From NCBI GenBank assembly GCA_944393715.1, contig CALYBB010000024.1, forward strand, positions 1 through 47,641: DNA of 47,641 nucleotides, given 5' to 3'. Numbering within the stretch: position 1 is the first letter of the stretch; each line of letters opens with the position of its first letter. Below are positions 13,050-47,280 of this stretch, in pieces. The notes under the pieces are model-generated. The model was not told the origin of the DNA and did no database searches. It worked only from the letters and a program-made list of their open reading frames with translations. The position numbers and the translations under genes are program-made. The DNA is from an uncultured Alphaproteobacteria bacterium. Its GTDB lineage: Bacteria; Pseudomonadota; Alphaproteobacteria; RF32; CAG-239.

Positions 13050-13052
13050 CTC

Positions 13053-13829: not shown

Positions 13830-13831
13830 GG

Positions 13832-14767: not shown

Positions 14768-14787
14768 ATTTTTCTCCTTATATGTTG

Positions 14788-15222
14788 TTAAAATTTACGT
14801 TCCGTTTTTAATAATCCCATAAAAAAGCAATCGGCGCCGTCATCGCGATAGCGCCGCAGAAGTCCTTCTTGTCTAAATCCCAGTTTTTTAACCAGCCGCA
14901 GACAATCTTTGTTATTGGTATTAACTAAAAGGCTTATTCTTTCGACCTTGAAAAAGTCAAAAGCCAAACCGAAAACGGCTTTTAATATCCGGCGGCTGCA
15001 CCATCTTTTATCCATGGTATAAATTGTCCAATACAAATCCCTGCCAAAACGGATATCATGATAAATCAGCCCGCCAATAAGCCGGCCGTTACTGATAAAA
15101 CCAATTGTGCAATATTCCGGATTAAGCCATTTGTCGTCACAGCCTAAACCAGCACAAATCCATTTGGTAATGCGCCCTTTGGCATCCAAAATCATATTAC
15201 AAAACGCCGCTGGCTCGCTCAT
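14788..15222 (-). CDS. Phage-encoded GNAT acetyltransferase
   Basis: A GNAT-fold protein of 144 aa from the ATG at 15222 (GGGGG 7 nt upstream; the frame extends to 15240). Visible parts are the RLIGGLIYHDIRFGRD beta strands, the RWCSRRILKAVFGLAFDFF helix in place of the usual acetyl-CoA loop, and the motif B-like LLVNTNNKDCLRLVKKLGF followed by EGLLRRYR. Such acetyltransferases are common in virion operons of podoviruses of proteobacteria; their substrate is unknown. It overlaps the end of the nozzle gene. Confidence 0.7.
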   Translation of the reverse strand: MSEPAAFCNMILDAKGRITKWICAGLGCDDKWLNPEYCTIGFISNGRLIGGLIYHDIRFGRDLYWTIYTMDKRWCSRRILKAVFGLAFDFFKVERISLLVNTNNKDCLRLVKKLGFRQEGLLRRYRDDGADCFFMGLLKTERKF

Positions 15223-16753: not shown

Positions 16754-17447
16754 TGACAACAACTCCTGCTGCGACCGCATCGAAAGTAACTCCGGACAAG
16801 CAAATATCTTTTACGGACAGCGATGCGGCAAATTTTTTCTTTAATTCCTTTTCATATTCGGCGTATTCTTCGGCATAATCCATGCCATTGCGTTTTAACC
16901 AGCGCCAAAGGATCCCAAGCTTGACCAAATATTCATCAAAGACCGGAATATCGGTATTTTTGGTAACAGAACTTTTTTCTTCATAACCGCGCTGCGGATC
17001 CAGACAAACCGTATTTGAACGATATTGAAACACAATTTTTATTCCATCGGGCGGCGGGGTTAAGAATTTTATCATACCGTTTTGAATTTTGAATTTTGTT
17101 TGCGATGTGGTTTCGCAAAAATATTTTTCTCTCATCCACTCTTCCGGATTAATTGCCCCGATAACTTTTTCGTGTTCATCCTTAATATAAACCGTATTAT
17201 TGATCAGACAGTAAAAATCGGGGCAAATGTCGTCCAGTAAATACCAACAGCGGCTGCCAGAGGTGCGCAAAATACCTTCTTTGGTTAGTTCCTGCCAATC
17301 GCCATAACGCAGCAAACTGTCCAAAGATGATTTGGCTATGCTAAAAAAAATGCTGTCTTGCTGCGAAGCACTATTAAACAAATCTTCCGGTCGTTTGGTT
17401 GCCGCTATATCGGCAGCTTCGCGGCAAATATCCAAGATTGATTTCAT
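16734..17447 (-). CDS. Phage adaptor / head-to-tail connector protein
   Basis: A 237-aa protein between nozzle and head genes, with features of gp4/gp11-type adaptors: an N-terminal helix with ILDICREAADIAATKRPEDL, SLLRYGDWQELTKEG, a beta-rich middle (TKFKIQNGMIKFLTPPPDG, IVFQYRSNTVCL) and a helical end (YLVKLGILWRWLKRNGMDYA). It should form the dodecameric ring below the portal. Its ATG overlaps the stop of the next upstream gene by 4 bp. Confidence 0.7.
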   Translation of the reverse strand: MKSILDICREAADIAATKRPEDLFNSASQQDSIFFSIAKSSLDSLLRYGDWQELTKEGILRTSGSRCWYLLDDICPDFYCLINNTVYIKDEHEKVIGAINPEEWMREKYFCETTSQTKFKIQNGMIKFLTPPPDGIKIVFQYRSNTVCLDPQRGYEEKSSVTKNTDIPVFDEYLVKLGILWRWLKRNGMDYAEEYAEYEKELKKKFAASLSVKDICLSGVTFDAVAAGVVVNANTSD

Positions 17448-18001
17448 TTCTTTTTTCTCCTGCTTTTTAAATTTTTAAGAGCGTTTATTTCTGCCTCCAA
17501 CGCAGCAATTTTTTGTTTATATTCCGCCTCAAGCTTTTCAATATCCAAAGTTTGTTTAACTTTGCGGCTGCCCTCAAGAAAACGCTGCGCCAAAATCCTT
17601 TCTTCTTCAATCCCTAGATCTTTGGCATGAACATCACTTAAATCCGCCAAGGCCTCAATCGTAAAAATGCCGCGGTATTTACAAGTTTCAATTTCGCTTA
17701 GAGTCAAAAAAGCAAACTGTTCAAGCGGTGTGCCATTTTCAACTTGTTTGCGCGAAAGCTGATAACGAGCATACTCAACCGGAAAACGGGCAATTTTCTC
17801 ATCCGTTGCCGGCTGATCAAAAACCTCGGTGGTGTTGTCTCGAATGCGTATCTCGCAATAACATACGTTTTTAAAAACCGGCAAACCGTTGGTATCCAGC
17901 CGATCAGTCTTGACGGGGCGATCATAAAAACGTGCTGCCAAACTGTCATTGCGGTGGTTCTTGTTTTGCTCAATAAGGTTTTGATAAGTGGCAAAATCCA
18001 T
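17444..18001 (-). CDS. Phage head-region protein with C-terminal coiled coil
   Basis: A 185-aa protein between capsid and adaptor. Residues 75-140 carry a pattern recurrent in podovirus head clusters: FPVEYARYQLSRKQVENGTP, QFAFLTLSEIETCKYRGIF, TIEALADLSDVHAKDLGI. It ends in a heptad helix (LEAEYKQKIAALEAEINALK) and a lysine-rich tail. The middle part resembles a helix-hairpin-helix-like ending. Likely a structural or assembly protein; no activity known. Confidence 0.6.
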   Translation of the reverse strand: MDFATYQNLIEQNKNHRNDSLAARFYDRPVKTDRLDTNGLPVFKNVCYCEIRIRDNTTEVFDQPATDEKIARFPVEYARYQLSRKQVENGTPLEQFAFLTLSEIETCKYRGIFTIEALADLSDVHAKDLGIEEERILAQRFLEGSRKVKQTLDIEKLEAEYKQKIAALEAEINALKNLKSRRKKK

Positions 18002-18020
18002 GTTTTTGTTCCTTTACTCC

Positions 18021-18054
18021 TAAACAAAAGGCAGGCTTCGTGCAAAGCCTGCCC
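18021..18054 (-). terminator. Terminator after the capsid gene
   Basis: On the minus strand GGGCAGGCTT-TGCACG-AAGCCTGCC is followed by TTTTGTTTA. It should lower expression of the tail genes relative to capsid. Confidence 0.85.
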
Positions 18055-18077
18055 TTCCGTGCCTATAAAAATTACGG

Positions 18078-19082
18078 TTATGCGGTCTCACCGCTATTCG
18101 ATTCCTGTCCGCCGGTTGAAGTATTGTTAATCAAAACTCCCTGCAACGCGGCATTGGACATGGTCATATTGCCGGCCCAGCCGATAATCCGGTATAAAGC
18201 ATCCTGATTAACCGCCAAGCGATCACCGCCAATAACTTTCATATTGCGGTCTTTATGCGGCCGCAGGTACAAATAATCGGTATTTAGGAAATACATGTGA
18301 TTAGCCGGACAATGACCGCCCTGACCGCCGTCAAAGATGACCTCGGCGCCTTTAAATTTCAGATTGGTGAAACCGGCATCGGCCAATTTAGGATCACTGA
18401 AACGCTGCTGCGGCTGCAAAGCCTGTTCGTACATTGCGTACATAATGTCGTCGGCAACGATCAAATCCGGTTTATCAACTCCACGCGAACATTTCATGTA
18501 CATTTCATCCATGGTCTGAATGATGTTTGATGAACTCAAACCGGAAACAGTTTTGGCCTGATTGCGCCAAAATTCGTTGCCGGAAGTTGCGCGGTTGATA
18601 TTACCGACCGTACCGGTTGACGGCGAATCGGCTACCAAAAGCTTCAAGCCGCCGATTGCTTTGCCATTAGAGGCCGTACCGTCGCCGTAAAGCGCCGCTG
18701 AAAGTTGGTTGCACATGGTTTTTTCGGCATTTTGGATACGTTTTTCCATCAACTCCAGAACTTGTTCTTTGCCAGAGTTTTTGAGCAAATCTTCACCGGA
18801 AACGGCCACCGGAACAGCACAAAGCTTGATGGCATATTCGGCGGCGGTAAACAACTGTTTGGGCGTGTAGTCAATCGTATCGTAGCCTGAATACCAAACC
18901 ATATCACCTTCACCGTATTCTAATTCCTCCAAAATTTTGGAACCGCCGGTAATGACGCGAACATTGTCTTTTGTTTTAAGTTTCGACAACAATGCATTGT
19001 TTTTGGAGACATTGTCGGCCAATTTGCCGGCACGTGATTCCAAAGTGGTCGTAAACAAATCATTATAATTACTGTTAGCCAT
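18078..19082 (-). CDS. Major capsid protein
   Basis: A 334-aa protein in the right position (after scaffold, before a strong terminator) with features of HK97-fold capsids of podoviruses: N-terminal arm with LFTTTLESRAGKLADNVSKN, P-domain-like LVADDIMYAMYEQALQP, and a C-terminal MYFLNTDYLYLRPHKDRNMK strand. It forms the icosahedral shell on the scaffold. The ribosome-binding site is AGGAAAAAAAGA-like just before the ATG. Identification rests on gene order plus these segments. Confidence 0.8.
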   Translation of the reverse strand: MANSNYNDLFTTTLESRAGKLADNVSKNNALLSKLKTKDNVRVITGGSKILEELEYGEGDMVWYSGYDTIDYTPKQLFTAAEYAIKLCAVPVAVSGEDLLKNSGKEQVLELMEKRIQNAEKTMCNQLSAALYGDGTASNGKAIGGLKLLVADSPSTGTVGNINRATSGNEFWRNQAKTVSGLSSSNIIQTMDEMYMKCSRGVDKPDLIVADDIMYAMYEQALQPQQRFSDPKLADAGFTNLKFKGAEVIFDGGQGGHCPANHMYFLNTDYLYLRPHKDRNMKVIGGDRLAVNQDALYRIIGWAGNMTMSNAALQGVLINNTSTGGQESNSGETA

Positions 19083-19106
19083 TCTTTTTTTCCTTTGTTA
19101 AAAAAA

Positions 19107-19958
19107 TTAAAGTTCGCCATTTAAGGCCGCAAAACGCATTTCAAGTTCTTCCCTTAAACTCATATCCTTAGTGTCAAAATCGGCCTTGCCTTTAGGGGCA
19201 AAAGCCGCTTCTTTTGATTTTAAAGCGTCTTTGCTTTTGAGTTCGAGAGCTTCTTGGGAACGTTTTGCAATCAGTTTGTCGCGAGTGGAGGCGTTAAACC
19301 ACACTGCGGCTTCGTAAGCATCATCAAGGTTATCTGCCAGACCTTTTTGTAAAAGATCGTACATATCCCTGACGACTTCGCGAAAAAACGGGTGCTTTGC
19401 CCTGCCTTCAGCATCCTGCGCTGCGGCAAATTCTTCCACCTGTTTTTGCACCATTTTATCGGCCAGAGCTGCCGATATCTGCTGTGCCGATTTGCCATCT
19501 GCCGCCCGAAACGGCATTGAACCGCCGCCGACATGATAAGCCGCCGCCAGCATATTAACCGTATCAGCCGGCTTGCGGCTCAGCATTTCATCTATGCGAA
19601 TCATATTGTCCAGCCATTCTCGTGCGGATTTAATGCCATAACCGCGCAGCTCATCGGCACGCGTGGCATAGGCATCTTCTAACCATTGATACGCTCCGAT
19701 CCGATGGCGCAGATCATCGAAGCCCCGCTCAATTTCCTGTTCGCGGACACATAAATATTTACGCCATTCGGGCGATAAAGAAGCAAAGGTTTCAGCATAT
19801 TCTTTTGAATATCCCGCAGGCGCAGACAAATATTCATCACCGCTTTTGTTTTTTGCTGAATTATCGTTCCCCGCAGAAATTGATCTTGAACTTTTTGGAG
19901 CCTTATCAATTTCCAATTCACGAGCAACGCGTTCAAGTTCTTTTCTTACTTCACTCAT
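19107..19958 (-). CDS. Phage scaffolding protein
   Basis: The open frame begins at 20135, but the ATG at 19958 follows GAGG by 8 nt and gives a 283-aa, highly charged, helical protein (MSEVRKELERVARELEIDKA; LAAAYHVGGGSMPFRAADGK; SLREELEMRFAALNGEL). High Glu/Lys/Ala content, no hydrophobic core and a position between portal and capsid are those of a procapsid scaffold. The first 8 bp overlap the preceding small gene. Confidence 0.72.
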   Translation of the reverse strand: MSEVRKELERVARELEIDKAPKSSRSISAGNDNSAKNKSGDEYLSAPAGYSKEYAETFASLSPEWRKYLCVREQEIERGFDDLRHRIGAYQWLEDAYATRADELRGYGIKSAREWLDNMIRIDEMLSRKPADTVNMLAAAYHVGGGSMPFRAADGKSAQQISAALADKMVQKQVEEFAAAQDAEGRAKHPFFREVVRDMYDLLQKGLADNLDDAYEAAVWFNASTRDKLIAKRSQEALELKSKDALKSKEAAFAPKGKADFDTKDMSLREELEMRFAALNGEL

Positions 19959-20181
19959 TCCATATCCTCTTTTTGTATTGTTGAACAATCTCGGCAAAAA
20001 TTTCTTTTTGCTGATTTTTTTCATTATTCTGTCGGATATTTTGCATATATTCGGCAGAATAATCAGACTGCAGCGCCAGATGATTGGCGCGCAGATAACG
20101 ATCAATGTCTTTAGCCGAGACAGCGACCGTTCCATCCGGCAGAAGAACTTCTGCCGAAAAATTCTTGGTAAAATACGTCAT
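19951..20181 (-). CDS. Small hypothetical phage protein, 76 aa
   Basis: Short protein between portal and scaffold starting MTYFTKNFSAEVLLPDGTVA, followed by VSAKDIDRYLRANHLALQSD. The rest is polar and helical (IRQNNEKNQQKEIFAEIVQQ). The 8-bp overlap with the scaffold gene and conserved-looking spacing suggest a real, translationally coupled gene. No domain recognised. Confidence 0.55.
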   Translation of the reverse strand: MTYFTKNFSAEVLLPDGTVAVSAKDIDRYLRANHLALQSDYSAEYMQNIRQNNEKNQQKEIFAEIVQQYKKRIWNE

Positions 20182-20216
20182 TTACGTATGCTTTCCGATT
20201 TTTGGTGAATACTTAT

Positions 20217-20249
20217 AAAAAAACCTTCATTGATTTAATGAAGGTTTTG
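20217..20249 (-). terminator. Terminator after the portal gene
   Basis: On the minus strand AAAACCTTCATTA-(AATC)-AATGAAGGTTTT is followed by further T residues. Packaging genes and head genes are therefore partly uncoupled. Confidence 0.8.
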
Positions 20250-20250
20250 A

Positions 20251-22071
20251 TTATTTGCCGGCGGCTTTTAGTGCCGTTTGTATTTCAAGTTGTTTGTTAT
20301 CAAACCGATTTTCGGTTATATTCTGTTGCTGCTGCAGCAACAGTTCCGCTTTTTTCAATTCATTTTGCTCTTTTTTGATTTGGTAATCCCAAGCGTTTTT
20401 TTGCTGTTGCAATCCCAATGACAACAATTGAGTATCCGGCCGTGATTCTACAACCGGATCCGGAGCGGATAATTCAGCGGCAATTTTATCAAAACTGCTG
20501 CTTAATATGCTTTCGTACTGACGTGCATTGGTTAATCCCGCAACAACACTGCCAATCATCTGGCGATAAACATCTAACAGCGCCGGCTGTTTGCTGACGA
20601 TATTAAAAGCCTGACCAATCATGGTGTGAATGGTGTTTATTGCTTTTAGGTTCTTTTCACTACGAAGATCTTCATTGAAAGAAACATCGCTTTCAACACC
20701 TAATATCATGCCGCGCAATTTATCTGTCTTAAGCAATCTAACCGCAGCATAAGCTTCCGGTGTATTTCTTTCGGAAACAGGCAGAAAAAACCGCAGCTTG
20801 TCGGCATCAAAGCATTCGCAGATGATCTCGGCTTTAATTTTAAATAGTCCGACAATAAAGTGCTGCATATCATTTTGACGGTCTTGATTGCGAAGTGTGC
20901 CAAAATTGGTTTTTTGGGTTACCGCTGTGGCGGTTTCACCAACCTTTGAACTGCCGCGCATGATATCGCTGACACCGGTTATTTCATAAACGGAATTAAT
21001 CAAATCCTGCCGACGTTGAGCTAAAGATTGAAGCGCCATGATATATTGATCTATCGGCATAAAATCAACAATATTTTTAATGCCTCCGGCTGATTTCAGG
21101 CGATCAAAGTCCGATACGGCAACCAAAGTTACATCTTTGTTCAAAATGTTGCCAAGTTCCGGAAAGGCATTGTCATAACAGCCGGATATTTTAAGAGCTT
21201 TCATTGTCCTTTCCATACGCGCCGTAACGCCATCAAGCTCATCCAAAAGCGGCTTAATCTGAGCATAATCCGGGACCGGTATCAAGCTGTCGTTGGTGCA
21301 GGTTGCCAAAAGAGGTTTGGGCAGCGGATAAAATCCGGTTAGGGAAAAAATGTTATCAATAACTTTTAGAAAATGTTGCGGACATGATTTGCTCAAGTAC
21401 AAAGTGCGTCCGCTTTGTTTATCCCAAATTTCATAAATCTCTATTGATTTATTTTTTTTGTCGCCTTCAAAAGACAAAGAAGCCGCAATCTCTTTACCGA
21501 AATTTGATACAACTTCATCCAAGCTCATATATTGACGAAGCGCAAACCAACCGCAATCTTCCCAAATTCCTACCTTATCCGAATCGGCTATGAAGTGCAG
21601 CGGATCGATATATTCCGTTGTAACAATCTCTTCGGTCTTTATTTCCAACGGACTGCCCGACATATCTTCTATCAGGCCGAATTTCGGGCGATAGCGTTCA
21701 ATAACAACGCCCATACCGCCAAGCAAAAAATCGTTGCGTGCGTATTTGATAACACTGTCAAAATCAAACTGTTCCAGATCCCAATCAAGAGCTTTTTCCA
21801 AAATGCGACAAGCCATATTTGAGATCTTGTCCGTTGTTTTATCTTTTCTTTCAATATAAGGACGCGGCTGCTTAAAATATAAAAAAGGCTTTAAGGTTTC
21901 AATTGAAGACCAAAAGATATTTTGTTTATCGCTTTTGGTCTCATTGCGATAATAGCGACGAATATCCTTTACCAACTGATGATAATCGCACCACTTGTTT
22001 TCGGCTCTGGTTATTTTTTCCAGCCATTCGCTTACTTCTGCTTCTTGAATTTTATTATTTTGTTTGCTCAT
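20251..22071 (-). CDS. Portal protein, P22-type
   Basis: From the ATG at 22071 (GGGAG 9 nt upstream; the frame extends to 22143) the protein is 606 aa. Typical portal segments are RAENKWCDYHQLVKDIRRYY, RNETKSDKQNIFWSSIETLK, FLYFKQPRPYIERKDKT and later GVSDIMRGSSKVGETATAV, with a long C-terminal Gln-rich barrel helix (QQQKNAWDYQIKKEQNELKK). The portal is the twelve-subunit ring through which DNA enters and leaves. It overlaps the GroES-like gene by 17 bp. Confidence 0.85.
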   Translation of the reverse strand: MSKQNNKIQEAEVSEWLEKITRAENKWCDYHQLVKDIRRYYRNETKSDKQNIFWSSIETLKPFLYFKQPRPYIERKDKTTDKISNMACRILEKALDWDLEQFDFDSVIKYARNDFLLGGMGVVIERYRPKFGLIEDMSGSPLEIKTEEIVTTEYIDPLHFIADSDKVGIWEDCGWFALRQYMSLDEVVSNFGKEIAASLSFEGDKKNKSIEIYEIWDKQSGRTLYLSKSCPQHFLKVIDNIFSLTGFYPLPKPLLATCTNDSLIPVPDYAQIKPLLDELDGVTARMERTMKALKISGCYDNAFPELGNILNKDVTLVAVSDFDRLKSAGGIKNIVDFMPIDQYIMALQSLAQRRQDLINSVYEITGVSDIMRGSSKVGETATAVTQKTNFGTLRNQDRQNDMQHFIVGLFKIKAEIICECFDADKLRFFLPVSERNTPEAYAAVRLLKTDKLRGMILGVESDVSFNEDLRSEKNLKAINTIHTMIGQAFNIVSKQPALLDVYRQMIGSVVAGLTNARQYESILSSSFDKIAAELSAPDPVVESRPDTQLLSLGLQQQKNAWDYQIKKEQNELKKAELLLQQQQNITENRFDNKQLEIQTALKAAGK

Positions 22072-22321
22072 TTTCAAATACTCCCAAAATTGAACTTTCC
22101 CTGACGACAACGACATCCTCATCACAAGACGGTAAATCGTCAAAGATATGAAAAAGAACCTTATCTCCCTGTTTGACTGAAGTTACGGCATTACCGACGC
22201 TTTCAACCCATCCGACGGTTCGGCTACGGTGATAATCGTCGGCAAGGATGATGCCGCCGGAGGTTTTTTCTTTATCCGGCTCAAGCCGGATAAAAACCCG
22301 ATCGCTAATTGCTTTAATCAT
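22055..22321 (-). CDS. GroES-like co-chaperonin encoded in the packaging operon
   Basis: An 88-aa protein with the complete co-chaperonin signature: ISDRVFIRLEPDKEKTSGGI (residues 4-23, containing the mobile loop KTSGGIIL), then GWVESVGNAVTSVKQGDKVL and a C-terminal VVVVRESSILGV. Cellular GroES is about 95 aa. Phage versions such as T4 gp31 replace host GroES for capsid folding. Placed between terminase and portal, it probably helps fold the capsid or portal with host GroEL. Confidence 0.8.
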   Translation of the reverse strand: MIKAISDRVFIRLEPDKEKTSGGIILADDYHRSRTVGWVESVGNAVTSVKQGDKVLFHIFDDLPSCDEDVVVVRESSILGVFENEQTK

Positions 22322-22353
22322 ATTTTGTCTCCTTATTTATTATTACACAGGCT

Positions 22354-23676
22354 TTACCATTTGCTTTCGCCAACTTCGGCGAACATGTCTTCTATGACAA
22401 CATGTCCTCGGCCGAAAGTCTTGGTTTTGCCAAGGTCATAAACCGGTTCGGCAAAAGTTAAAACAAAAGCGTCCGCCTTATCCGGCGAACGCCCTAATCT
22501 TTTTTTGACATCTTCTTTGCTCTCAAGCAACAGTCTTCCTCTGGCATCATATTTTTTGTTGACCGAACAGAGTTCGTTTAACAGATCTTCATCTGGCGGC
22601 AGCTGCACCGGAAGCTCCTGATTGAGCCAGACAGCGGCATTATTCCACATTTCGGCGCGGCGGTTGGCATAACGCTCCTCCAAAATGGCTTTGGCGCCAA
22701 AATTTACCGCACGGATAATATCACGGAATCCTCTGGAGGCAAGAATATCATAAACTCCGCCGCCGACACCGCCGGCATCCAAAAATATTCTGGCCGGCGC
22801 ATAATCTGCAATAATACCTTGGCAATAGTTAGCTATGCTGACGATATCCTGTTTGTTTAAGGTTTCAAATTTCAGACACCAGCGACCGCGCCGAAAACAA
22901 AAAACCGTTCGATCATCGCCGAAACGCGCTATGTCCAATCCGATAATCAGCGGCGAATCGGTTGATGATATTTTGGCTTCAAAAGCTCGTCGGACCATCT
23001 GAGGTGCAATCAGTTTTGCCGCTCCCTGAACCAGCGGCTGCCCAAGCCAGATGTGCATATAGTCATCCGGTGCTTCTTTGCGGCATTTTTCGGCTTGTAA
23101 TTTTAGCTCCTCAGGACAAAAAGGATTATCATCATAATTAACGCGGCGCACCAAAGTGCGTTCGTCCGGTGCTGCCGCCAGCAAAATCCATAATGGATCA
23201 TTTTCCTCCTCCCGATTCATAGAAATCCAGATTTCCGATCCATCTTTTCGGATAGTCGGCGACAGGATATCCCACGATTTTTTGGAGATGCTCTGCCCTT
23301 CTTCAATCCACGCGATATCAACTCCTTCAAGTGATTTTATTTTTTGGATATCCTGATCACGCAGTCCTTTAAATATGAATTGTGTTCCGGTAATTTTGTT
23401 CTCAATTTTGGTTTCCCTGATTTGATAATCATTCAATTGGTAAAAAGCTATGCGGTCGCACAACAGGCGGTAAACCGAATCTTTAATACTGTCCTGAACT
23501 TCACGCAGGCAGGCAATTACGAGCTTTTGCATGCGCCCTTTAATCAGCAGGCTGTCTGCAAAGGCGTAAGATTTTCCTCCGCCGCGGCCGCCATAATAAA
23601 ATTTAATGCGCCAATGCTCAGTCAGCAAAGGCGCAAATGCTCGGGGTATCCGAGCAATTATCGTCTGATTATTCAT
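22354..23676 (-). CDS. Terminase large subunit
   Basis: A 440-aa packaging motor. The ATPase domain has Walker A YYGGRGGGKS (residues 27-36) and Walker B GVDIAWIEEG (118-127). The nuclease domain has RNase H-like acidic residues in IIGLDIARFGDDRTV (D248), ARIFLDAGGVGGG (about D301) and SPDKADAFVLTF (near 410). It cuts concatemers and pumps DNA into the procapsid. It follows the small subunit by 14 bp. Confidence 0.92.
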   Translation of the reverse strand: MNNQTIIARIPRAFAPLLTEHWRIKFYYGGRGGGKSYAFADSLLIKGRMQKLVIACLREVQDSIKDSVYRLLCDRIAFYQLNDYQIRETKIENKITGTQFIFKGLRDQDIQKIKSLEGVDIAWIEEGQSISKKSWDILSPTIRKDGSEIWISMNREEENDPLWILLAAAPDERTLVRRVNYDDNPFCPEELKLQAEKCRKEAPDDYMHIWLGQPLVQGAAKLIAPQMVRRAFEAKISSTDSPLIIGLDIARFGDDRTVFCFRRGRWCLKFETLNKQDIVSIANYCQGIIADYAPARIFLDAGGVGGGVYDILASRGFRDIIRAVNFGAKAILEERYANRRAEMWNNAAVWLNQELPVQLPPDEDLLNELCSVNKKYDARGRLLLESKEDVKKRLGRSPDKADAFVLTFAEPVYDLGKTKTFGRGHVVIEDMFAEVGESKW

Positions 23677-38029: not shown

Positions 38030-39631
38030 TTACATTTGGTCTTTTGAAATATAATTTTCTTCGTAATCTTTTGAGGAATCAAGAGTGATGGCATCGACTT
38101 CGCTTTCTTTATAATAGCGTTTTATGTCATCAAAGTCGTCTATTGAATAGCTCAGTCCTACGGCGACGGCTGTCCGTGCGCAATCAATATTTTTGTTTTC
38201 GGTAATGAAATCTTTTTGATTCCTTTTAACATCGATAAGACGGAATCCTCGACAGCGCCTATAACCGAAATGGTCACCGCAATTTTTTTTGAGCCAGGCG
38301 GTTAGATCTTCCTCTATCAAATTCATGTAGAAAGCTATCGCCGAACCACCACCGCCAATAGCTAAAGGCACTGTTTCACGCCATTCTCTGGCGTGCGGAT
38401 CTCTTTCTCTATAGGTTGAAAACAGAACTTTTTTAAAACTTGTCAAAATCTTGTTTTTGTATTTTGCAACATCTTCATGTTGGCACTGTTTTATTTCCTC
38501 GACAACCAAATAGTCTTCTTCATCAGTTACAATATGGTCAAGGCTTTGAGCTGCAATCACTCTTTCTTTTTGCGCGACTAAGCTATTAAAGGCATTTTTA
38601 TAATTAAACAACGCAGACTGATACTCTTTGGTGCCCAAAGGTTCAACCTTTGATTTGAAAAAAGAATATATGATATTGCCAGCATCTTCTTTAACTCTGA
38701 ACGTGCAAATATCCAGCGTTCCTGCTCCGATATCCGAAACACAGTATAAGCCTTCGTGAGAAATATCGTTGCGTTTGATGTATGACTGAATTGACGCAAT
38801 AATCTCAGGTACAATATTCAAGGCCGTTTTATCTTCTTCCATAACAGGAGATTTAGCCGATATGTCGGAAAAAGCAGACAGATAATATGCCTCTTTTAGA
38901 ACCTGAAGAAACTTGGCATTATCGCCGTCGTTGTTAAATTGGACAGACGGTATGCCCAGATTTACCTGCCAGATGATATTTTTGTTTTTGACGATATCAT
39001 CGCGCCCATGTTTCTTGACAAACCAACTTTTAATATATCGCAAGACCAAAGCGATGTAGGCACGAAAATATATATCTGCATTTTTTTCGCTACGGATGAA
39101 ATTCAGCTTTAGGTTTGTACACGTATGGGGCTGTCCGTATTCAGGCAATGAAAAGATGCCGTTTTTTTCGCATAAATACGTCGGAAGGAGGTATTCTTCT
39201 CCAGTTATTCCGTATTTGCCAAAATCAACAATATAAAAAGCATCATTGTCTGCATAGACTTCTTTAATAACGGCTTTAGTGGTTGATGTTCCGACATCAA
39301 GCCCGATACATAAGTCAATATCTTCTTTTTTTGACGGGGTAAAAATATCTCTAAATCTGAATTCATTGGGCGGCGTTAAGGATTGGGTTTGAGTTTCGGC
39401 GGTGTTTTGTTCGCGGTGTTTCCAAAACCTTTTTGTAACGGTTTGTTCCTCAAGATACCTTTTGCCTTTTACTATTTTTTCGACCACAAGCGGCCGAACC
39501 TTTTTAATGCCGGCATAGTGCATGTTTTTGGCTTTATTTTCATCATCAACCAAGGCATGTTCATCACGCCCGAGCATTTTATTTTTCAGAGCACGCAACT
39601 TTGCCATATTTTCATCATCTAATATTCCCAT
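38030..39631 (-). CDS. Hsp70/actin-fold (ASKHA) ATPase paired with a SNF2 helicase
   Basis: A 533-aa protein with an N-terminal basic helical segment (about 1-100), then the ASKHA ATPase: phosphate 1 IDLCIGLDVGTSTTKAVI (105-122), phosphate 2 CVSDIGAGTLDICTF (297-311) and adenosine loop PLAIGGGGSAIA (422-433). The substrate-binding domain of DnaK is absent; the N-terminal extension takes its place. It starts 1 bp after the helicase gene stop, with the helicase gene first. The helicase-ASKHA association is not one I recognise as an established system; a defence or DNA-remodelling role is inferred. Confidence 0.78.
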   Translation of the reverse strand: MGILDDENMAKLRALKNKMLGRDEHALVDDENKAKNMHYAGIKKVRPLVVEKIVKGKRYLEEQTVTKRFWKHREQNTAETQTQSLTPPNEFRFRDIFTPSKKEDIDLCIGLDVGTSTTKAVIKEVYADNDAFYIVDFGKYGITGEEYLLPTYLCEKNGIFSLPEYGQPHTCTNLKLNFIRSEKNADIYFRAYIALVLRYIKSWFVKKHGRDDIVKNKNIIWQVNLGIPSVQFNNDGDNAKFLQVLKEAYYLSAFSDISAKSPVMEEDKTALNIVPEIIASIQSYIKRNDISHEGLYCVSDIGAGTLDICTFRVKEDAGNIIYSFFKSKVEPLGTKEYQSALFNYKNAFNSLVAQKERVIAAQSLDHIVTDEEDYLVVEEIKQCQHEDVAKYKNKILTSFKKVLFSTYRERDPHAREWRETVPLAIGGGGSAIAFYMNLIEEDLTAWLKKNCGDHFGYRRCRGFRLIDVKRNQKDFITENKNIDCARTAVAVGLSYSIDDFDDIKRYYKESEVDAITLDSSKDYEENYISKDQM

Positions 39632-39632
39632 T

Positions 39633-42600
39633 TTATCCTGCCTTTACCAGAACCATGCAAACATCTGTTTTTTCGGCTTTTATATTTTTGTTGTTTTCTA
39701 TTTTCAACAATCTGTCTTCAATCTTTTGCCGCAAAATTGAAAATTTTCCTTCCACGGCGGGCAGCATTTTTTCGTTGTGGCTTTCGATATATTTTTGTTT
39801 TGTTACGGCTAATTGTGCTTTTTTTAGATCCAGATGCCTTTGCAAGGTTGCCTTTTGCATTTCCGCTTTGTCAAAATTTTGATTTTCGATATCTTTTACC
39901 GTATTTTCATAACTTTCCAGATTAGATATCATAATATCTTCGGACATTTTACCGAGCTTATCGTAATTCAAGCCGCTGCGTTCGTTCCACAAACGCCCTT
40001 TGTTGAGTGCCTCAAGAAGAATTTTTTTGGCCACTTCGCCTTCCAGCCACTGCCCCGTTTGGACATTTTGACCGTTGTATATCAGTTTTTCATATGCGAC
40101 AACACCTCTTGCCGACATTAATGAAACACCGATCAAGAACAAGCCTTTGTTGTCGCTGTTTTCCACTTTAATGGCTGAGGTCGGCGCATAATTATTTTTG
40201 GGATCAATATCGTGCAAAAATCTGACAATCGGGTGGAATTGATTGATTGTTTCAACAGTACCTTTTGATTTTATCACGACATTATTGGTAAACACACAGG
40301 GGATGCTGCCGTATTCGCGCAAAAGAAGGCTGTTAGAGCTTAGTCCGTTGGCGCGGCAATAGTCTTCATAAGCCACACGAAAAGACGAATCCACCGTAAT
40401 TTCGTATTTATACGCCGTTGAAGTTTTAGCTATTGTGGTGTTTTGATAAAGTTTTGTTAGTGTATCGAGGACATAATTGGCAATATCCTGAGATGTAATA
40501 ATGTTGTCTTCATCTTTTGCTTTTTGGATCTCGCGCAAAACATAATCGCCATAGGCGGTCAATTGCGAGGCCTCCGCTTCCAGCTTATTATTTTGTTCTT
40601 CTTTATTTATGATTGCCATTCTTGTTTGTTCTATTCTGGCATTCTGTTCTTCAGGCGACAGCAGAAGCAAATCGACGGATAGTCTCTTGAACATATCGCC
40701 CAAGATAATTTCAAAATCGCCTAAAGAACTGGTGCAGATATCAAATTTTGCATAGAGTTTGTCGTAGATGCGTTTGTCTATGGTGGTGTCGTGAAACATG
40801 TTCCATATAAGAATTTTATCATTTTTTTGCCCGATGCGGTCAAGACGGCCTATTCTTTGCTCAACGCGCATGGGATTCCACGGCAAATCGTAGTTAATCA
40901 GCAACCGGCAAAATTGCAAATCGACACCTTCGCTTCCGACCTCTGATGCCAGTAATATCCTTTGATCTTCGTCTTTTTCAAACTTTTCCAATATTGTATC
41001 TTTATCTTTTACCTTGCCTGAAATAACAGATCCTTTGATACCGTCTTCCGCCAATCTTTTTTGCAGATATTCCAAGGTTGATATAAAAGAGGAAAATAAG
41101 ACAATTTTATCTCGAGGATATTTTTGCGCAATCTGTTTTATGACATCAAGCAGACGCTGATATTTTGTATCATTAGCATATAAAGCATCAAGATCTTTGA
41201 TGCCCTCGACGGTATTGTAAATTTGATTCATAAAATCCGTAATTTCAATTTTTTCAAATTCGTTGTCGCCGTCATCGTAGTAAATATCGTCCAATCTTTG
41301 TTTCCATAAAACAAGCGAAGCGTAGATGCTGCTGGACATCATCCTTTGCGGCATACACAACAAAAACTTAGCTAAGTGCTCATTTCCTTTTTGCGCGGCA
41401 TATTTCCGCACCGTGGCAGAGATTGCATCATAAACGATATTTTCTTCCGGCGTCATTTTAATTTCTTCCGGAATAGCCTCGCGAACAACCTTATATTCTT
41501 GTATATCTCTTTTTCTGGTACGGTTAATGATATATCCAAGAGAATTTATGCTGTCTATTTCGTAAGCAAAATGGTGCAATCGGCTTTGGAGCAAATCCGG
41601 CGTATGTTCAATCTCATCTTGCATGACCGCTAATTGTTTGCTGTTTTTGAACAAGCCTAGGACATCATGCGCATGGACCTCATTTATTAAGGCTAAAATG
41701 CTTTTTTTGTTCAGTCTTTCTGCCAACAGGCCGTCGCGGAGTTTTATCAACGGTTTGTTAATGGCCAAAATTTCATCAAAAGAACTGCCGCTGACATATT
41801 CCCGCGAAAAATTTGCCGGATCCAGCAAGCTGAGCAGCGACAAAAGATCTTCCGATTTGTTTTGTATCGGTGTGGCCGACAGAAACGCCGCATATTCCGA
41901 TACCTCTCTTAACGAACGGGCAATTTTATAAATCTGCGTTTCGGGATTACGCAGATAATGAGCCTCATCAACAATCAACAAATCAAATATCTTTTCGCCT
42001 TTATCCGCTAAATCATCAAAAGTCTGGCGGACAATATTGCCTTTGTCTTTTTCGTTATCCTCTTTATTTCTTCTTTCGTCTTTACTCCGCGTAACCAAAC
42101 CCTGACGGCTGCAAATTAAAACGAACTCATCTTCTTCTTTGTTTTGGGCGGCTGCAATCAGTTCTCTGGCATCAATTATTTCGGCTTTTACGCCCATTTT
42201 TTTCTTTAGTTCATCTTTCCATTTTTGGCGCAAAATCCCCGGACAAACAATCAGCAGCTTTTTAAAATTAAAGCGCTGTTTCAGCTCTGTCCAGATTAGG
42301 CCGGCTTCAATCGTTTTGCCCAAACCAACTTCGTCGGCGATTAAAACGCTGTTTGAAGCGGAGTTAATTATCTTCATTACCGGTTTGAATTGGTGCGCAT
42401 AAAAATCCGTATTAGTTGTTTCCATACTGTAAAGCATATCATTGAGATTTCCGTTCAGACGGATTTTGGTAATCTCCCGACGAACATCCTCAACAGAATT
42501 AAATATGTTTTTGGCCACCAACGACGGCAAATCATCAAAAATCTCATCATTTTCGCAAAGCGCCAAATAACTTTCTGGATATTGGGTAATTTGTTTGTCA

Positions 42601-42704
42601 AATTTCACATACCAAAAAATGCGGTCGCGCTTGACCGTTTTTTTCTGCAGTATCCCTATTTTCTGCGGATTTGATTTCAGGAAGACTTTGTTGTTTATTT
42701 CCAT
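39633..42704 (-). CDS. SNF2/RapA-like DNA-translocating ATPase (1023 aa)
   Basis: A complete SF2 SNF2 motor. Motif I LIADEVGLGKTIEAG (121-135), Ia LIVCPGILRQKW, II LLIVDEAHYLRNP (242-254), III FLSATPIQNKS (274-284), IV RDKIVLFSSFIST (531-543), V LASEVGSEGVDLQF (585-598), VI RVEQRIGRLDRIGQ (613-626). The C-terminal 250 residues end in long coiled coils (residues about 920-1010). No nuclease or methylase domain is visible. The layout resembles RapA and the SNF2 helicase DrmD of DISARM; here it is the first gene of a two-gene unit with the Hsp70-like protein. Weak ribosome-binding site AGAATATCT before the ATG. Confidence 0.9.
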   Translation of the reverse strand: MEINNKVFLKSNPQKIGILQKKTVKRDRIFWYVKFDKQITQYPESYLALCENDEIFDDLPSLVAKNIFNSVEDVRREITKIRLNGNLNDMLYSMETTNTDFYAHQFKPVMKIINSASNSVLIADEVGLGKTIEAGLIWTELKQRFNFKKLLIVCPGILRQKWKDELKKKMGVKAEIIDARELIAAAQNKEEDEFVLICSRQGLVTRSKDERRNKEDNEKDKGNIVRQTFDDLADKGEKIFDLLIVDEAHYLRNPETQIYKIARSLREVSEYAAFLSATPIQNKSEDLLSLLSLLDPANFSREYVSGSSFDEILAINKPLIKLRDGLLAERLNKKSILALINEVHAHDVLGLFKNSKQLAVMQDEIEHTPDLLQSRLHHFAYEIDSINSLGYIINRTRKRDIQEYKVVREAIPEEIKMTPEENIVYDAISATVRKYAAQKGNEHLAKFLLCMPQRMMSSSIYASLVLWKQRLDDIYYDDGDNEFEKIEITDFMNQIYNTVEGIKDLDALYANDTKYQRLLDVIKQIAQKYPRDKIVLFSSFISTLEYLQKRLAEDGIKGSVISGKVKDKDTILEKFEKDEDQRILLASEVGSEGVDLQFCRLLINYDLPWNPMRVEQRIGRLDRIGQKNDKILIWNMFHDTTIDKRIYDKLYAKFDICTSSLGDFEIILGDMFKRLSVDLLLLSPEEQNARIEQTRMAIINKEEQNNKLEAEASQLTAYGDYVLREIQKAKDEDNIITSQDIANYVLDTLTKLYQNTTIAKTSTAYKYEITVDSSFRVAYEDYCRANGLSSNSLLLREYGSIPCVFTNNVVIKSKGTVETINQFHPIVRFLHDIDPKNNYAPTSAIKVENSDNKGLFLIGVSLMSARGVVAYEKLIYNGQNVQTGQWLEGEVAKKILLEALNKGRLWNERSGLNYDKLGKMSEDIMISNLESYENTVKDIENQNFDKAEMQKATLQRHLDLKKAQLAVTKQKYIESHNEKMLPAVEGKFSILRQKIEDRLLKIENNKNIKAEKTDVCMVLVKAG

Positions 42705-42781
42705 TAGATATTCTTTAACTTATATTGCCATAGCTTCATCTATAGTAGTAAACAATGGTTTGAAAATCAACTACTTTTATT

Positions 42782-43165
42782 ACAACAAGAAGACGTCAAG
42801 CAATTATTGCTAAAAGTGAAAAAATTGATGGCTCCAAGATAACTATAGATGATTTAGCCGCGATTGATAAAGACACCAATTTAGGTGATAAGCAAGCCTT
42901 TCTTTGGGCTGTGGGGAGATATTTGCAGTTGATGTAAAGGATTTTACCAAAGAAGGAAAAATGGATTTACTCAAAAAGTTTATTGAAGAAGGATAAAAAG
43001 AGCTAAAAACGGACCAATTGTTATTTATGCACCGGATAATTTAGTTGGTAAAATTATTGGTAAAGACGGTAAAATATTAAAGGATTGAGTCAAGAATCAG
43101 GTGCGCGTTTTAAGGTTGTAAAAGCCAGCGAAAAACAGATAATACGGGAAACGCCTCCGATGAAA
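42782..43165 (+). pseudogene. Decayed KH-domain protein gene
   Basis: Readable pieces in shifting frames show a former gene. About 42783-42938 reads RRRQAIIAKSEKIDGSKITI then DDLAAIDKDTN and stops. The next frame has VKDFTKEGKMDLLKKFIEEG and stops. About 43010-43087 gives GPIVIYAPDNLVGKIIGKDG then KILK, the KH-domain GxxG loop, and after a further frameshift SQESGARFKVVKASEKQIIR. At least two frameshifts and two stops. The remainder of 42705-43594 holds the left flanking repeat and AT-rich sequence. Confidence 0.6.
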
Positions 43166-43254
43166 AAAACAATACTTTCATACGATGGGCTACTTCGGGC
43201 AAAGGAAGGAAATAATTTATAATCTAACTTATTAAACAAACAAGAAGTTCCTGC

Positions 43255-43375
43255 GAAAAAGTTCGGACAAAGTGAAAAAAATGACTACTAAAAAATGAAA
43301 CATCCGAACTTGCTAAAAGCCTTGAAAATAAAAGAAAAAGCAGCCGTTTTACCGACTGCCGTTTGTATTGGTGAT
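43255..43375 (+). repeat. Left flanking direct repeat (~121 bp) of the AT-rich island
   Basis: Aligns with 47408-47529: shared blocks GAAAAAGTTCGGACAAA, GAAACATCCGAACT and AAAAGCCTTG.AAATAAAAGA, then AAAAAGCAG..., and TTTGTATTGGTGAT at the end. Inside lies an inverted repeat AGTTCGGA (43260-43267) / TCCGAACT (43303-43310). Confidence 0.8.
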
Positions 43376-43594
43376 GCCAGCGTAATGAATCTCGAACTTT
43401 TACTTTCTCAAAGTATTATCTGACGACAATGAGTTTGTATGAAGAAATTAAAAGAAATAATGTTATATCTCTGCAATTATTATAAACTCATGACGATTAT
43501 ATTTTTATTTGTACCGAAATTTATATTTGGCCAATAAATTCTCTCTATTTTCCTCTTTAGGCAGATTCTTAATTTGATGTGGCTTTTATTAAAA

Positions 43595-45271
43595 TTACTT
43601 TTCTCGGTATACCATATCATCAGGTATATAGCCTCTATTGTTAGAAAAGATTCTGTTTTCTTCACTTTGAAATCTGCTGATACTTAAATTAATTTCTTCA
43701 ATTAATTTTTTTATTATAGATCGATTTAAAAATACAGAAAGAGGGTATGCCTTGATTGCACCTATTTTAATATCTGTACCTTTTATTTTGTAGCTACGTG
43801 AAGAAGTGTAAGCAAAGCTTATTTTACCTTGTAAACTTAAATGTTTTATATAATTACTGTATTTTATATTATATTCTTTAATTTTATTAATTTCTTTCAG
43901 TGGTAATTTTAAAATTTCTTGCAAATCTAAATTTTTATATTCCGCAGGTTTTATGATAAACAGCGTTGCTAATCCTTCTGTTTCTTTATTGATAATTTCT
44001 ATGCTAGAGTTCAAACTTAATTTTTTTCTAAAAAATTCTGTTTCAGAAAATAAACATCCAACCAATTGGCAGTACCCTTTAATTCCTAGAGTTTTTAAAC
44101 TGATTAAAGCAGAAATAGGACCAGAAGCCGATCTAGTAAGCTCTAAAGATGTTTCAAATGGAGCAAAAGATCCCCAACTTAAATTTTCATATGGTATATT
44201 TTTTTTAGGATTTAAATTAAAATATGCATTTCTATCTTTTATTAAAAAAAGACTGGATATATATGGACAAAATCCTGTTTTATGGAAATCTACACCAATT
44301 GAGTCTGCATATTTTATTTCTTCTATTTTTTTGCTAAGTTTTTTTATTTTTTCTATAGATGATTTGTCAAAATGGCAACAGTTTTCATTAAAATCATATT
44401 TCTTAAAAAATAACCATACCCAACCTATAACAGCATCTACATGAATATGTGGAGAGTAACTTAAATTATATTTTTTTATAATTTTTTTGTTTAATTTAAA
44501 TATTTTTTTTATAGGGTCAACAGCATATTCAACTGTACTGCAACCATTAATATTATATCCTAAAAATATTTTTCCAGCTTCTATATTTTCTTGAATAATT
44601 TGTTCTAATACCTCCATCTTAATTTGATCATTTTCGTCACAAGGTGCTTCAATGCAATTATTTTCTCCAATTCCTAGCCAGTTACACACTTCATAATGGC
44701 AAGGGTGAGCTTTGGCACTAGTTATTATAAAATACCTTTTTCCAGAAATTCCTTGCTGAATAACTGATGGATCTGCTTTATTTAAGGCTATTTTAGTAGC
44801 ATATAAATTAGTACCTTTTCCACCAAAAGTAAAAATTCCATGTGAATTTTTCCAATCCCAGCCTATTAAATCGCATAAGTATTTGCTAACTTCTAATTCA
44901 CTAGCGAGTAACCTTCCTGAATATTGGTCTTCTGCAATATTAGGATTAAAAATGTTTGTAAAACATATTCCCGCTAGAGAAGCTAAATTGACAGGAGGGA
45001 TAACATTAATCATAGTCCCTGGATTAATCCAATTGGGAATATTTTGATACATAGGAGAAATATATTGAAAAACATCTTGAGGATTCATATGATCAAAATT
45101 CAATTCACAATTTTGAATATATTCCATATAATTAAAATTTTCAGATCCTTTAAAAAAGGGTTTAGCATAGTTAGTGTACTTATCTATAGCCTTTTCACAT
45201 TGTTTGATTAATTTTATCGAATAATTTAAATTTGACTTTTTATAACCACCAAAATATTTGCTAATGTACAT
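43595..45271 (-). CDS. Group II PLP-dependent decarboxylase
   Basis: A 558-aa fold-type I PLP enzyme. GIFTFGGKGTNLYATKIAL (146-164) is the cofactor-phosphate loop, SAKAHPCHYEVCNWLGIG (185-202) holds the ring-stacking H189, PHIHVDAVIGW (D279) binds the pyridine nitrogen and DSIGVDFHKTGFCPY (K331) carries the Schiff-base lysine. This is the pattern of glutamate/tyrosine/diaminobutyrate decarboxylases; the usual SGGTEAN is changed to FGGKGTN and the substrate is unknown. It starts 11 bp inside the nucleotidyltransferase gene's 3' end. Coding region very AT-rich compared with the main chromosome. Confidence 0.85.
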   Translation of the reverse strand: MYISKYFGGYKKSNLNYSIKLIKQCEKAIDKYTNYAKPFFKGSENFNYMEYIQNCELNFDHMNPQDVFQYISPMYQNIPNWINPGTMINVIPPVNLASLAGICFTNIFNPNIAEDQYSGRLLASELEVSKYLCDLIGWDWKNSHGIFTFGGKGTNLYATKIALNKADPSVIQQGISGKRYFIITSAKAHPCHYEVCNWLGIGENNCIEAPCDENDQIKMEVLEQIIQENIEAGKIFLGYNINGCSTVEYAVDPIKKIFKLNKKIIKKYNLSYSPHIHVDAVIGWVWLFFKKYDFNENCCHFDKSSIEKIKKLSKKIEEIKYADSIGVDFHKTGFCPYISSLFLIKDRNAYFNLNPKKNIPYENLSWGSFAPFETSLELTRSASGPISALISLKTLGIKGYCQLVGCLFSETEFFRKKLSLNSSIEIINKETEGLATLFIIKPAEYKNLDLQEILKLPLKEINKIKEYNIKYSNYIKHLSLQGKISFAYTSSRSYKIKGTDIKIGAIKAYPLSVFLNRSIIKKLIEEINLSISRFQSEENRIFSNNRGYIPDDMVYREK

Positions 45272-46151
45272 AATAATCTTTCCTTGCTATATTGCTAATT
45301 ATTTGACAATTTGTCTTTTTTCTATCTTCAACAGTTTTTTCCTTATAATAATTTATATAATATTTCTTACTTAAATTAATAAACTCTAATGCAGATTTAT
45401 ATATGCTTTGATCCTTATTAAAAAACAAAATATTCTGTTCTTCTTCTTTTAACTCTAATATATTGTCAAATTGATATTTTAAGTGTTTATGCAAACATAC
45501 CGGATATTTTCTTTTGTACATAAATAACCATTTTATAAAATGATTCCTTGTCTTATATAAATGATCCATAATATCGGGATCTTTTGTTTCTGCAAGGAAT
45601 TCTATACGTTTAGTATATCCTTCCAATCGTTTTCCTAAAATATCTAATCTTTTTCTCCTAAGATCATTATTGTAAAAGGGCAAAAAATCTCTTTCTATTC
45701 GTTTCTTTTCTGGAATTTCACCAAATAAAGGTATTCCGTGCTGATATAAAGCACCAATTATCATATCAATACTATCATAAGAAGATGTTTTGTCGATGTT
45801 TTCTATTCTTGGCACTTCAGGAGAGAGAATTGTTATGTCAAACGCAATATCAGGATGCTTGATATAGAATTCTATTCTGCGAGCGACATAGTCGTCAATA
45901 CTTACGGGATTTTTATCTTTAAAATCTTGATTGCTATTGCGAACAACTTCTACTATTTCATTAGCATCCAGCGAATTCATTTTATCTGTATACACACAAA
46001 TATCTATATCCGAAACACCAGGAATAAAACCTTTTTTATAGGTAGATGAACCGTAAATTTGAGCTGCTTGAATTTTTAAAGGGGCTAAATCTTTTTGGAG
46101 GTATTCTTTTATGTCTAATAATGCCTTTTTATATTTTTCAAAAAAGAACAT
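45261..46151 (-). CDS. Minimal nucleotidyltransferase (pol beta-like)
   Basis: A 296-aa protein with the core motif IYGSSTYKKGFIPGVSDIDI (32-51): GSS followed by the two catalytic Asp (D48, D50), then a third candidate Asp in DIAFDITILSP (about 105). The C-terminal half is helical (KRLEGYTKRIEFLAETKDPD; LYKTRNHFIKWLFMYKRKYP), like the accessory helix of MNT/DUF4037 proteins. It would transfer NMP to a small molecule or protein. Good GGAGAAAAA ribosome-binding site and 1 bp after the phosphodiesterase gene. Part of the same AT-rich operon. Confidence 0.82.
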   Translation of the reverse strand: MFFFEKYKKALLDIKEYLQKDLAPLKIQAAQIYGSSTYKKGFIPGVSDIDICVYTDKMNSLDANEIVEVVRNSNQDFKDKNPVSIDDYVARRIEFYIKHPDIAFDITILSPEVPRIENIDKTSSYDSIDMIIGALYQHGIPLFGEIPEKKRIERDFLPFYNNDLRRKRLDILGKRLEGYTKRIEFLAETKDPDIMDHLYKTRNHFIKWLFMYKRKYPVCLHKHLKYQFDNILELKEEEQNILFFNKDQSIYKSALEFINLSKKYYINYYKEKTVEDRKKTNCQIISNIARKDYYVH

Positions 46152-46152
46152 A

Positions 46153-47259
46153 TTAATTTTTCTCCAATAAAATTAATGGAACAAACATTTCCTCTTTACT
46201 TAAACCCGCATGATCAGCTTTTAATGATTTAAACTCTTTTTCCCCTGTAGAATATCGCAACGATTTATTGCCCTTAGATATTGCTACGAATTGGCCTAAG
46301 AAATTTGGTACTTCAGAATGCATTTTTCCACTTCCTAAAATTCCGCTTCCTAAAAATTCCTCTTTCGTATATAAATGAAAATCATTTTCAAATATCTCTT
46401 TGAATTTTGAATAAAAATATTTTTCATTATTCTCTTTGATAAAAAAAGTAATAAATCTGGCTTCTAATGCAGGTGGGCGTAAAAATGTATTACATAATTC
46501 AGAATATTTATTTAAATAAATTTCTTCTACGTCAATTTCGCCATGATCTGCAGAAATAATGACTAGAGAATCTTTTAGGCTATTATTTAGTTTTTGTATA
46601 TTATAATCAATGTCTAATAAAATATTTTTTACTTCATTGCTATTAGTACCATATTGATGCGTAGAATGATCAGGCTCAATCCAATATGCGCAAAATAATT
46701 TCGAATTATCATTTTTAGTTGCTAAAGCAATAATTTTGTCACACATTTCTTGAAAGCTATCAACCCCACCAACTTCAAAAGATGGAAAAATCTTATGATA
46801 TTCAATAGAAGGATTATTTTTAATAATTTTTTCATATATAGTTTCATATTTTAAAATATCTTTATATGGAGCTGGTGTCTCCATTTTTTTCCCACTATAA
46901 AATGCCTTGTTTCTGAAAGTTTCTATAATTTCATCGTATTTTCGATAGTAGCACATCCATCCCAGCCAGCCACTTTCCCATGGTGATAAGCCAGAATGAA
47001 AAGCTGTCGTTGCTGCGGCAGTTGTTGGGGGAAAGACTGAAGATATTTGTGCAATGATATGTTGCCGTATAAAGCTGTCTTTAGAAAGATTTTTTTCAAT
47101 TAAATCTATCCCCATCCCATCCAAAATGAGAAGGATAATATTTTTATGTTTATTTAAAAGTTTTTTATCTAAAATATCCAAAGAAGGGTGATATATTGGT
47201 AATCCATAATATTTAAGAAGTGAATTGCTAACTGCAAGAATATTATTTTTATTAATCAT
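46153..47259 (-). CDS. Alkaline phosphatase-superfamily phosphodiesterase/nucleotide pyrophosphatase
   Basis: From the ATG at 47259 (GGAG 6 nt before; the frame opens at 47271) the protein is 368 aa. Family metal and nucleophile sites (numbered from 47271): NIILLILDGMGIDLI (D51), FPPTTAAATTAFHSGLSP (nucleophile T83 or T84), CAYWIEPDHSTHQYG (metal D and H), VIISADHGE (D, H) and ADHAGLSKEEM (C-terminal metal H). This is the type I phosphodiesterase/nucleotide pyrophosphatase group acting on phosphate mono- or diesters with two metals. No signal peptide, so it is cytoplasmic. First gene of the island operon. Confidence 0.85.
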   Translation of the reverse strand: MINKNNILAVSNSLLKYYGLPIYHPSLDILDKKLLNKHKNIILLILDGMGIDLIEKNLSKDSFIRQHIIAQISSVFPPTTAAATTAFHSGLSPWESGWLGWMCYYRKYDEIIETFRNKAFYSGKKMETPAPYKDILKYETIYEKIIKNNPSIEYHKIFPSFEVGGVDSFQEMCDKIIALATKNDNSKLFCAYWIEPDHSTHQYGTNSNEVKNILLDIDYNIQKLNNSLKDSLVIISADHGEIDVEEIYLNKYSELCNTFLRPPALEARFITFFIKENNEKYFYSKFKEIFENDFHLYTKEEFLGSGILGSGKMHSEVPNFLGQFVAISKGNKSLRYSTGEKEFKSLKADHAGLSKEEMFVPLILLEKN

Positions 47260-47280
47260 AAACTTCTCCATTTTTAATAG

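Follow-up and report, generated by a model that had tools for sequence, protein, structure and literature searches.

Two adjoining genes on the minus strand of the window, by which we mean the whole stretch of 47,641 nucleotides that was analysed, encode a SNF2 motor protein and an ASKHA ATPase (Table 1). Both open reading frames are real, and their coordinates and the spacing of 1 bp between the SNF2 stop and the ASKHA start are exactly those given by a sequence-only reading of this DNA. An AGGA sequence lies a few bases upstream of the ASKHA start, and the junction fits translational coupling, the median gap in the family being 2 bp. No Rfam RNA was found in the region of the pair, and promoter and terminator scans of the same region gave results close to those obtained with shuffles.

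The immediate neighbours of the pair in the window are a GGDEF gene, a decayed KH-like gene and an AT-rich PLP-enzyme operon, with no known defence genes among them. The decayed gene beside the pair had been predicted and does exist: positions 42705-43594 hold broken frames only, including PDNLVGKIIGKDGKILK on the plus strand, and look like a decayed KH-domain gene. Positions 43595-47271 are taken up by the AT-rich operon (28% G+C) with PLP decarboxylase-like, nucleotidyltransferase-like and phosphodiesterase-like genes, which is possibly a separate horizontally acquired cluster. A homologue of the GGDEF neighbour is present in three congeneric genomes; the surrounding gene order is absent there, and they provide no empty site to compare. 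The pair does not lie in a recognisable defence island in the window, and the nearest phage genes lie ~14 kb away in a probable prophage (positions 8261-23676), which contains genes for a phage lysozyme (8261-8776) and a terminase large subunit (22354-23676). Because the neighbours in the window are not known defence genes, a defence reading of this pair rests on its relatives.

Table 1. Position of the two genes and of their observed or predicted features in the window.
Feature	Position	Strand	Remarks
SNF2 gene (gene 1 of the pair)	39633..42704	-	RapA-like SNF2 motor, 1023 aa
N-terminal small all-beta (Tudor/SH3-like) domain, residues about 1-50	42555..42704	-	five strands in the model
Walker A DEVGLGKT, residues 124-131	42312..42335	-	D124 and V126-T131 invariant in 51 relatives, E125 in 50
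Walker B / DEAH, residues 246-249	41958..41969	-	D246 and E247 invariant in 51 relatives
C-terminal RapA-type region, residues about 740-1023	39636..40487	-	from model secondary structure; REase-like domain (presumed inactive), then beta sheet with two-helix coiled-coil insert (914-1005)
Junction SNF2/ASKHA	39631..39640	-	from sequence: AGGA, SNF2 stop TAA, one base (39632), ASKHA ATG
ASKHA gene (gene 2 of the pair)	38030..39631	-	Hsp70-like ATPase, 533 aa
Hsp70-type nucleotide-binding domain, residues 105-510	38102..39319	-	Hsp110 complex entry Z 23.4 (302 aligned, rmsd 4.2), DnaK 23.1, MreB 22.2
Phosphate-1 loop GLDVGTSTTK, residues 110-119	39275..39304	-	G110, D112, G114 and K119 invariant in 51
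K175, candidate equivalent of DnaK K70	39107..39109	-	invariant in 51; equivalence inferred from order and position
E276, candidate equivalent of DnaK E171	38804..38806	-	invariant in 51; within stretch profile-aligned to DnaK
Phosphate-2 loop DIGAGTLD, residues 300-307	38711..38734	-	D300 and G302 invariant; T305 and D307 in 50/51
Adenosine loop GGG, residues 427-429	38345..38353	-	invariant in 51
C-terminal tail SKDQM, residues 529-533	38033..38047	-	tail pattern in 24/51 relatives

The product of the first gene matched the Pfam models SNF2-rel_dom (4.5e-23) and Helicase_C (4.8e-21), and the motif residues D124-T131, D246-E247 and Q616-R623 are conserved across the family, which agrees with the earlier description of a full-length SNF2 motor with its helicase motifs. 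The PADLOC DrmD model PDLC02623 covered residues 9-1020 with 711.6 bits. An AlphaFold2 model of the protein (alignment of 31 sequences, pLDDT 80.3) matched RapA over residues 48-1023 (Z 23.3, 756 aligned) with an rmsd of 11.3, which presumably reflects domain shifts, and according to this model the protein has the whole-length domain architecture of RapA. By sequence, the motor alone aligns with RapA (E 8e-27), and the modelled core also matched the motors of INO80, SRCAP and SWR1 (Z 20-22). RapA and BrxHII carry Tudor domains at the N-terminus (PMC12839542), and the small N-terminal domain of the model would be of this Tudor/SH3-like type, judging from its position. The strands of the C-terminal part, the last of which is preceded by two long helices, fit the C-terminal domain of RapA and BrxHII, the REase-like domain of which is described as inactive (PMC12839542). 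Among the columns conserved to at least 85% in the REase-like region of the paired SNF2 proteins, no acidic-acidic-lysine catalytic set was present, and the domain is presumed to be inactive here as well. The SNF2 protein belongs to the RapA/DrmD/BrxHII branch, as the sequence-only reading had suggested.

For the ASKHA protein, Pfam yielded no match, HSP70 included. Its AlphaFold2 model (45 relatives aligned, mean pLDDT 78.6) found DnaK as the best Foldseek match (1.6e-11), and the model strongly supports an ATPase domain of the Hsp70/Hsp110/MreB type at residues 105-510, with MreB nearly tied with Hsp110 and DnaK. The protein adopts the actin/Hsp70 fold and contains the phosphate-1, phosphate-2 and adenosine loops, and its invariant residues fit the active site of Hsp70, where motif order points to probable equivalents of D8, K70, E171, D194 and T199 of DnaK. 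The catalytic residues are intact in both ATPases of the pair. Weak profile matches were obtained with crenactin, FtsA and ParM (E 0.14 for ParM). DnaK/Hsp110 and MreB are closest to the protein, rather than a sugar kinase or ParM, though absence from the ranked list does not exclude a family. The match to the PADLOC model PDC-M61B was limited to 45 residues (28.4 bits) at the phosphate-2 loop, and nine genomes or records contained no match to PDC-M61A, a model that did not match in any control genome either.

Because the ASKHA protein ends soon after residue 510, with about 20 residues past the nucleotide-binding domain, it has no substrate-binding domain. The earlier statement that it lost the substrate domain of DnaK is therefore right in that the window protein contains none, but a loss as an evolutionary event is not borne out. 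The basic N-terminal helix described as a gain is similarly a partial match: the N-terminal 103 aa have a net charge of +6 and two helices of low-to-middling confidence, but this segment varies from 2 to 315 aa and is nearly absent in some members, and is therefore not a defining feature of the family. At the other end, about half of the family (24 of 51 relatives) carries a short conserved tail of the SKDxV type, a pattern picked after seeing the data, compared with 0.06 occurrences expected in shuffles. In four relatives (L029:9003-10397, L030:9501-10937, L032:9357-10919 and L058:5012-6589), it is replaced by C-terminal paired CxxC motifs, mostly of the DnaJ-like CxxCxGxG form. The conserved tail and the CxxC termini hint at contacts with a partner.

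A plasmid protein search with the ASKHA sequence recovered relatives from Aminobacter, Shinella and a cyanobacterium that share 21-24% identity, all of them adjoining a SNF2 gene. When genome contigs were scanned, the single ASKHA query gave no match and a nine-member alignment was too diverse, and a four-member alignment resulted in 54 loci; together with the loci found before, 60 distinct ASKHA loci were obtained after dropping duplicates and non-relatives. The scan matches L084 and L085 turned out not to be relatives and were left out. In all 55 loci with sequence on both sides, including the window's own, a SNF2 gene adjoins the ASKHA gene, and the remaining five have ASKHA at or near a contig end. 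The order is SNF2 followed by ASKHA in 54 of the 55, with the median gap given above and one gap of 404 bp, while one locus (Leptolyngbya) shows the reverse gene order. Any other gene family near the pair was found in six of the 60 loci at most. The trees of both proteins agree with a Mantel r of 0.886 (0 of 5000 shuffles), to which shared species history contributes, and the SNF2 tree contains 28 of the 32 ASKHA splits that are well supported. According to the record titles, the loci are spread over several phyla of bacteria and also include one draft genome of Methanosarcinaceae; individual taxon assignments may be wrong because many records are MAGs.

The reciprocal searches led by SNF2 gave the same picture. 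All six plasmid records found at E < 1e-80 also contained an adjacent ASKHA gene, and overlapping genome samples (398 of Pseudomonadota, 385 of the window's class and 78 of a second class) contained 12 distinct SNF2 loci, seven of them followed by ASKHA, five by a sacsin/Hsp90-like GHKL gene and none unpaired. In the Pseudomonadota genomes with a SNF2 inside the Hsp70-partnered clade, ASKHA was adjacent in seven out of seven. This neighbourhood survey finds the homologues paired, not scattered in core genome positions, and the SNF2 and Hsp70-like genes almost certainly form a conserved two-gene module. The pair noticed by the sequence-only reading is thus correct, and the association is stronger than had been claimed.

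The five SNF2 loci with a sacsin/Hsp90-like GHKL ATPase gene behind them (L112:1038-7702, L113:20-6837, L114:372-4939, L117:2-4524 and L118:649-5376) form a sister group. Their partner was identified by Pfam SACS in L112-L114 and by GHKL motifs, without a Pfam match, in L117 and L118. The SNF2 tree supports the Hsp70-partnered clade with 0.963, the sacsin-partnered clade with 1.0 and both together against the other included SNF2s with 0.986. These TmtA-like pairs share the gene order, the tight spacing, a chaperone-type ATPase as partner and a sister SNF2 with the pair described here, but differ in having a GHKL ATPase in this role and, in four of five cases, an N-terminal SNF2 segment with an HEPN-like motif (RNRWAH).

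The SNF2 of the pair was present in just one of 35 congeneric genomes. Chromosomal copies are common among the ASKHA loci found, and the plasmid copies are mostly located on conjugative or mobilizable plasmids; phage-borne copies were not found in annotated phages or viral contigs. This rare and patchy distribution and the occurrence on conjugative plasmids bear out the earlier view that the pair is accessory. Hachiman, AbiE, cas I-D and McrBC genes adjoin plasmid or genome copies: one plasmid copy lies between an McrBC-like cluster and Hachiman/AbiE genes, and another one near type I-D cas genes. At three loci (L002, L029 and L031), the pair stands beside genes for McrC-like, McrB-like AAA and TM0106-type nuclease/helicase proteins. 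PADLOC matches below 1e-25 were obtained for nine of 20 large genes adjacent to pairs (Lamassu LmuB, GajB-like, DUF499, PDC-M16A, PDC-S68, DRT helicase, DrmMI-like, DrmD-like and a weak Dsr1), the other 11 giving none at this threshold, compared with none of 33 control genes. The one-sided exact test for this contrast gave about 4e-5, with control genes from chromosomal stretches of two pair-carrying genomes, small samples, test genes that are larger on the whole and a PADLOC collection that includes generic helicase models. The result agrees with a defence association of the relatives.

We consider the pair, with a probability of about 0.6, to be a horizontally spread RapA-type SNF2 protein with a dedicated Hsp70-like ATPase, co-translated with it and likely serving as an accessory anti-invader remodeller. 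The neighbours of the relatives make a defence role probable, and both proteins very likely act as one complex. Of the earlier label of a defence or DNA-remodelling system, the fixed two-gene unit, its accessory nature and the defence-type neighbours hold, and anti-phage activity is inferred. How such a complex might work can be proposed only tentatively: the motor would track along duplex DNA or perhaps engage RNA polymerase in the fashion of RapA, and the ASKHA protein, which is devoid of a peptide-binding domain, may control the motor as a switch or clamp driven by nucleotide, or hand over the target to a partner. The remodelling would be directed against phages or plasmids. Because the window copy contains no recognisable nuclease, it would act by blocking or displacement and not by cutting, or depend on a partner encoded elsewhere.

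Other explanations were weighed against this reading. The whole-length structural match of the SNF2 model with RapA, together with an Hsp70 fold that suggests remodelling of protein complexes, would also suit a transcription-recycling or stress machine, in which a RapA-like protein and its Hsp70-like regulator rescue stalled RNA polymerase to the benefit of the host and unrelated to phages. This seems rather improbable in view of its absence from 34 of 35 congeneric genomes, the copies on conjugative plasmids and the defence-type neighbours of the relatives. An accessory module of McrBC or type IV restriction, which feeds DNA or RNA to McrBC, is brought to mind by the three loci with McrC-like, McrB-like and TM0106-type genes and by the fusion of Hsp70-like domains with McrB (early NxD clades) and with CnuC (type III-A CoCoNuTs), as described in PMC11090510. 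With McrBC genes at just three of 60 loci and no McrC gene in the genome of the window, we regard this as unlikely, and McrBC as an obligate partner of the pair was rejected on the same count.

Two further readings have very little probability. The pair might be a piece of DISARM, with a DrmD helicase left over or recruited and the ASKHA gene as an incidental neighbour; the best PADLOC model of the SNF2 protein is indeed labelled DrmD, the pair of L047 adjoins a second, DrmD-like helicase (642.6 bits), and a DISARM-like association of McrBC is mentioned in the literature. However, the NCBIfam DISARM_DrmD score of 379.6 is below the cut-off of 610, the genome of the window contains no match to DUF1998/MZB (PF09369), no DrmA/B/C genes adjoin the pair, the paired SNF2s constitute a clade that excludes the other DrmD-like helicases under study, and the ASKHA neighbour is constant instead of incidental. 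The ASKHA protein might also be a cytomotive filament protein of the ParM/MreB type for DNA positioning, with SNF2 as DNA adaptor, since MreB comes within about 1 Z unit of Hsp70 and the profile weakly matches crenactin, FtsA and ParM; against this stand the invariant Hsp70-type K and E catalytic positions and the many chromosomal copies.

Among known systems, RapA (HepA), a Swi2/Snf2 protein that recycles RNA polymerase, shares the whole-length SNF2 architecture and the C-terminal sheet with a coiled-coil insert (PMC12839542), whereas the SNF2 of the pair has a single N-terminal Tudor-like domain, an obligate Hsp70-like neighbour, an accessory distribution and a sequence alignment restricted to the motor. 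DrmD of DISARM and BrxHII of BREX type 3 belong to the same RapA-like SNF2 branch, and the SNF2 of the pair matches the DrmD model PDLC02623 over its full length, but its NCBIfam score is below the DrmD cut-off and its clade is separate from the DrmD-like helicases included. No other DISARM or BREX genes stand alongside the pair in the window, the neighbours being unrelated, in keeping with the earlier view that DISARM lacks an ASKHA partner. PDLC02623 best fits the non-DISARM paired clade, with as much as 928.1 bits in L030, so that an annotation as "DrmD" may conceal the pair.

Compared to Hsp70/DnaK and Hsp110, the ASKHA protein has the same fold of the nucleotide-binding domain (Z 23) and catalytic set, but a variable N-terminal extension, no substrate-binding domain and no Pfam HSP70 match. 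CnuD of the CoCoNuTs and the Hsp70-like proteins fused to McrB likewise represent Hsp70-like ATPases recruited to defence operons, but they possess a substrate domain and degenerate Walker-like motifs (PMC11090510), whereas the ASKHA motifs of the pair are intact and its partner is SNF2 instead of McrB/McrC. Membership in CoCoNuT type III was rejected, as the genome of the window contains no McrC (PF10117) match and no McrBC gene is adjacent. The CoCoNuT work was the sole near relative found in a literature search outside subscription journals, where the SNF2-ASKHA pair was not described, although such absence is no proof. The pair represents a compact, widespread two-gene module hidden by annotation, with its SNF2 recorded as "DrmD" or "helicase" and the partner as "hypothetical protein".

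In the eukaryotic SWI/SNF, INO80 and SWR1 remodellers, a SNF2 motor is coupled to actin-fold ATPases (actin/ARP subunits) within large complexes. The combination of SNF2 with an actin-fold ATPase in the pair resembles this arrangement by analogy, with no HSA helix identified and no evidence of common ancestry. The sister SNF2-sacsin pairs support a broader view, in which SNF2 motors of immunity operate together with ATPases of the chaperone type. In its furthest form, which we offer as a speculation, immune RapA-like SNF2 motors would have repeatedly recruited chaperone-fold ATPases, Hsp70-like in one clade and Hsp90/sacsin-like in its sister, as obligate regulators, and would constitute a bacterial counterpart of the SNF2-actin/ARP pairing that strips or remodels invader nucleoprotein without cutting DNA.
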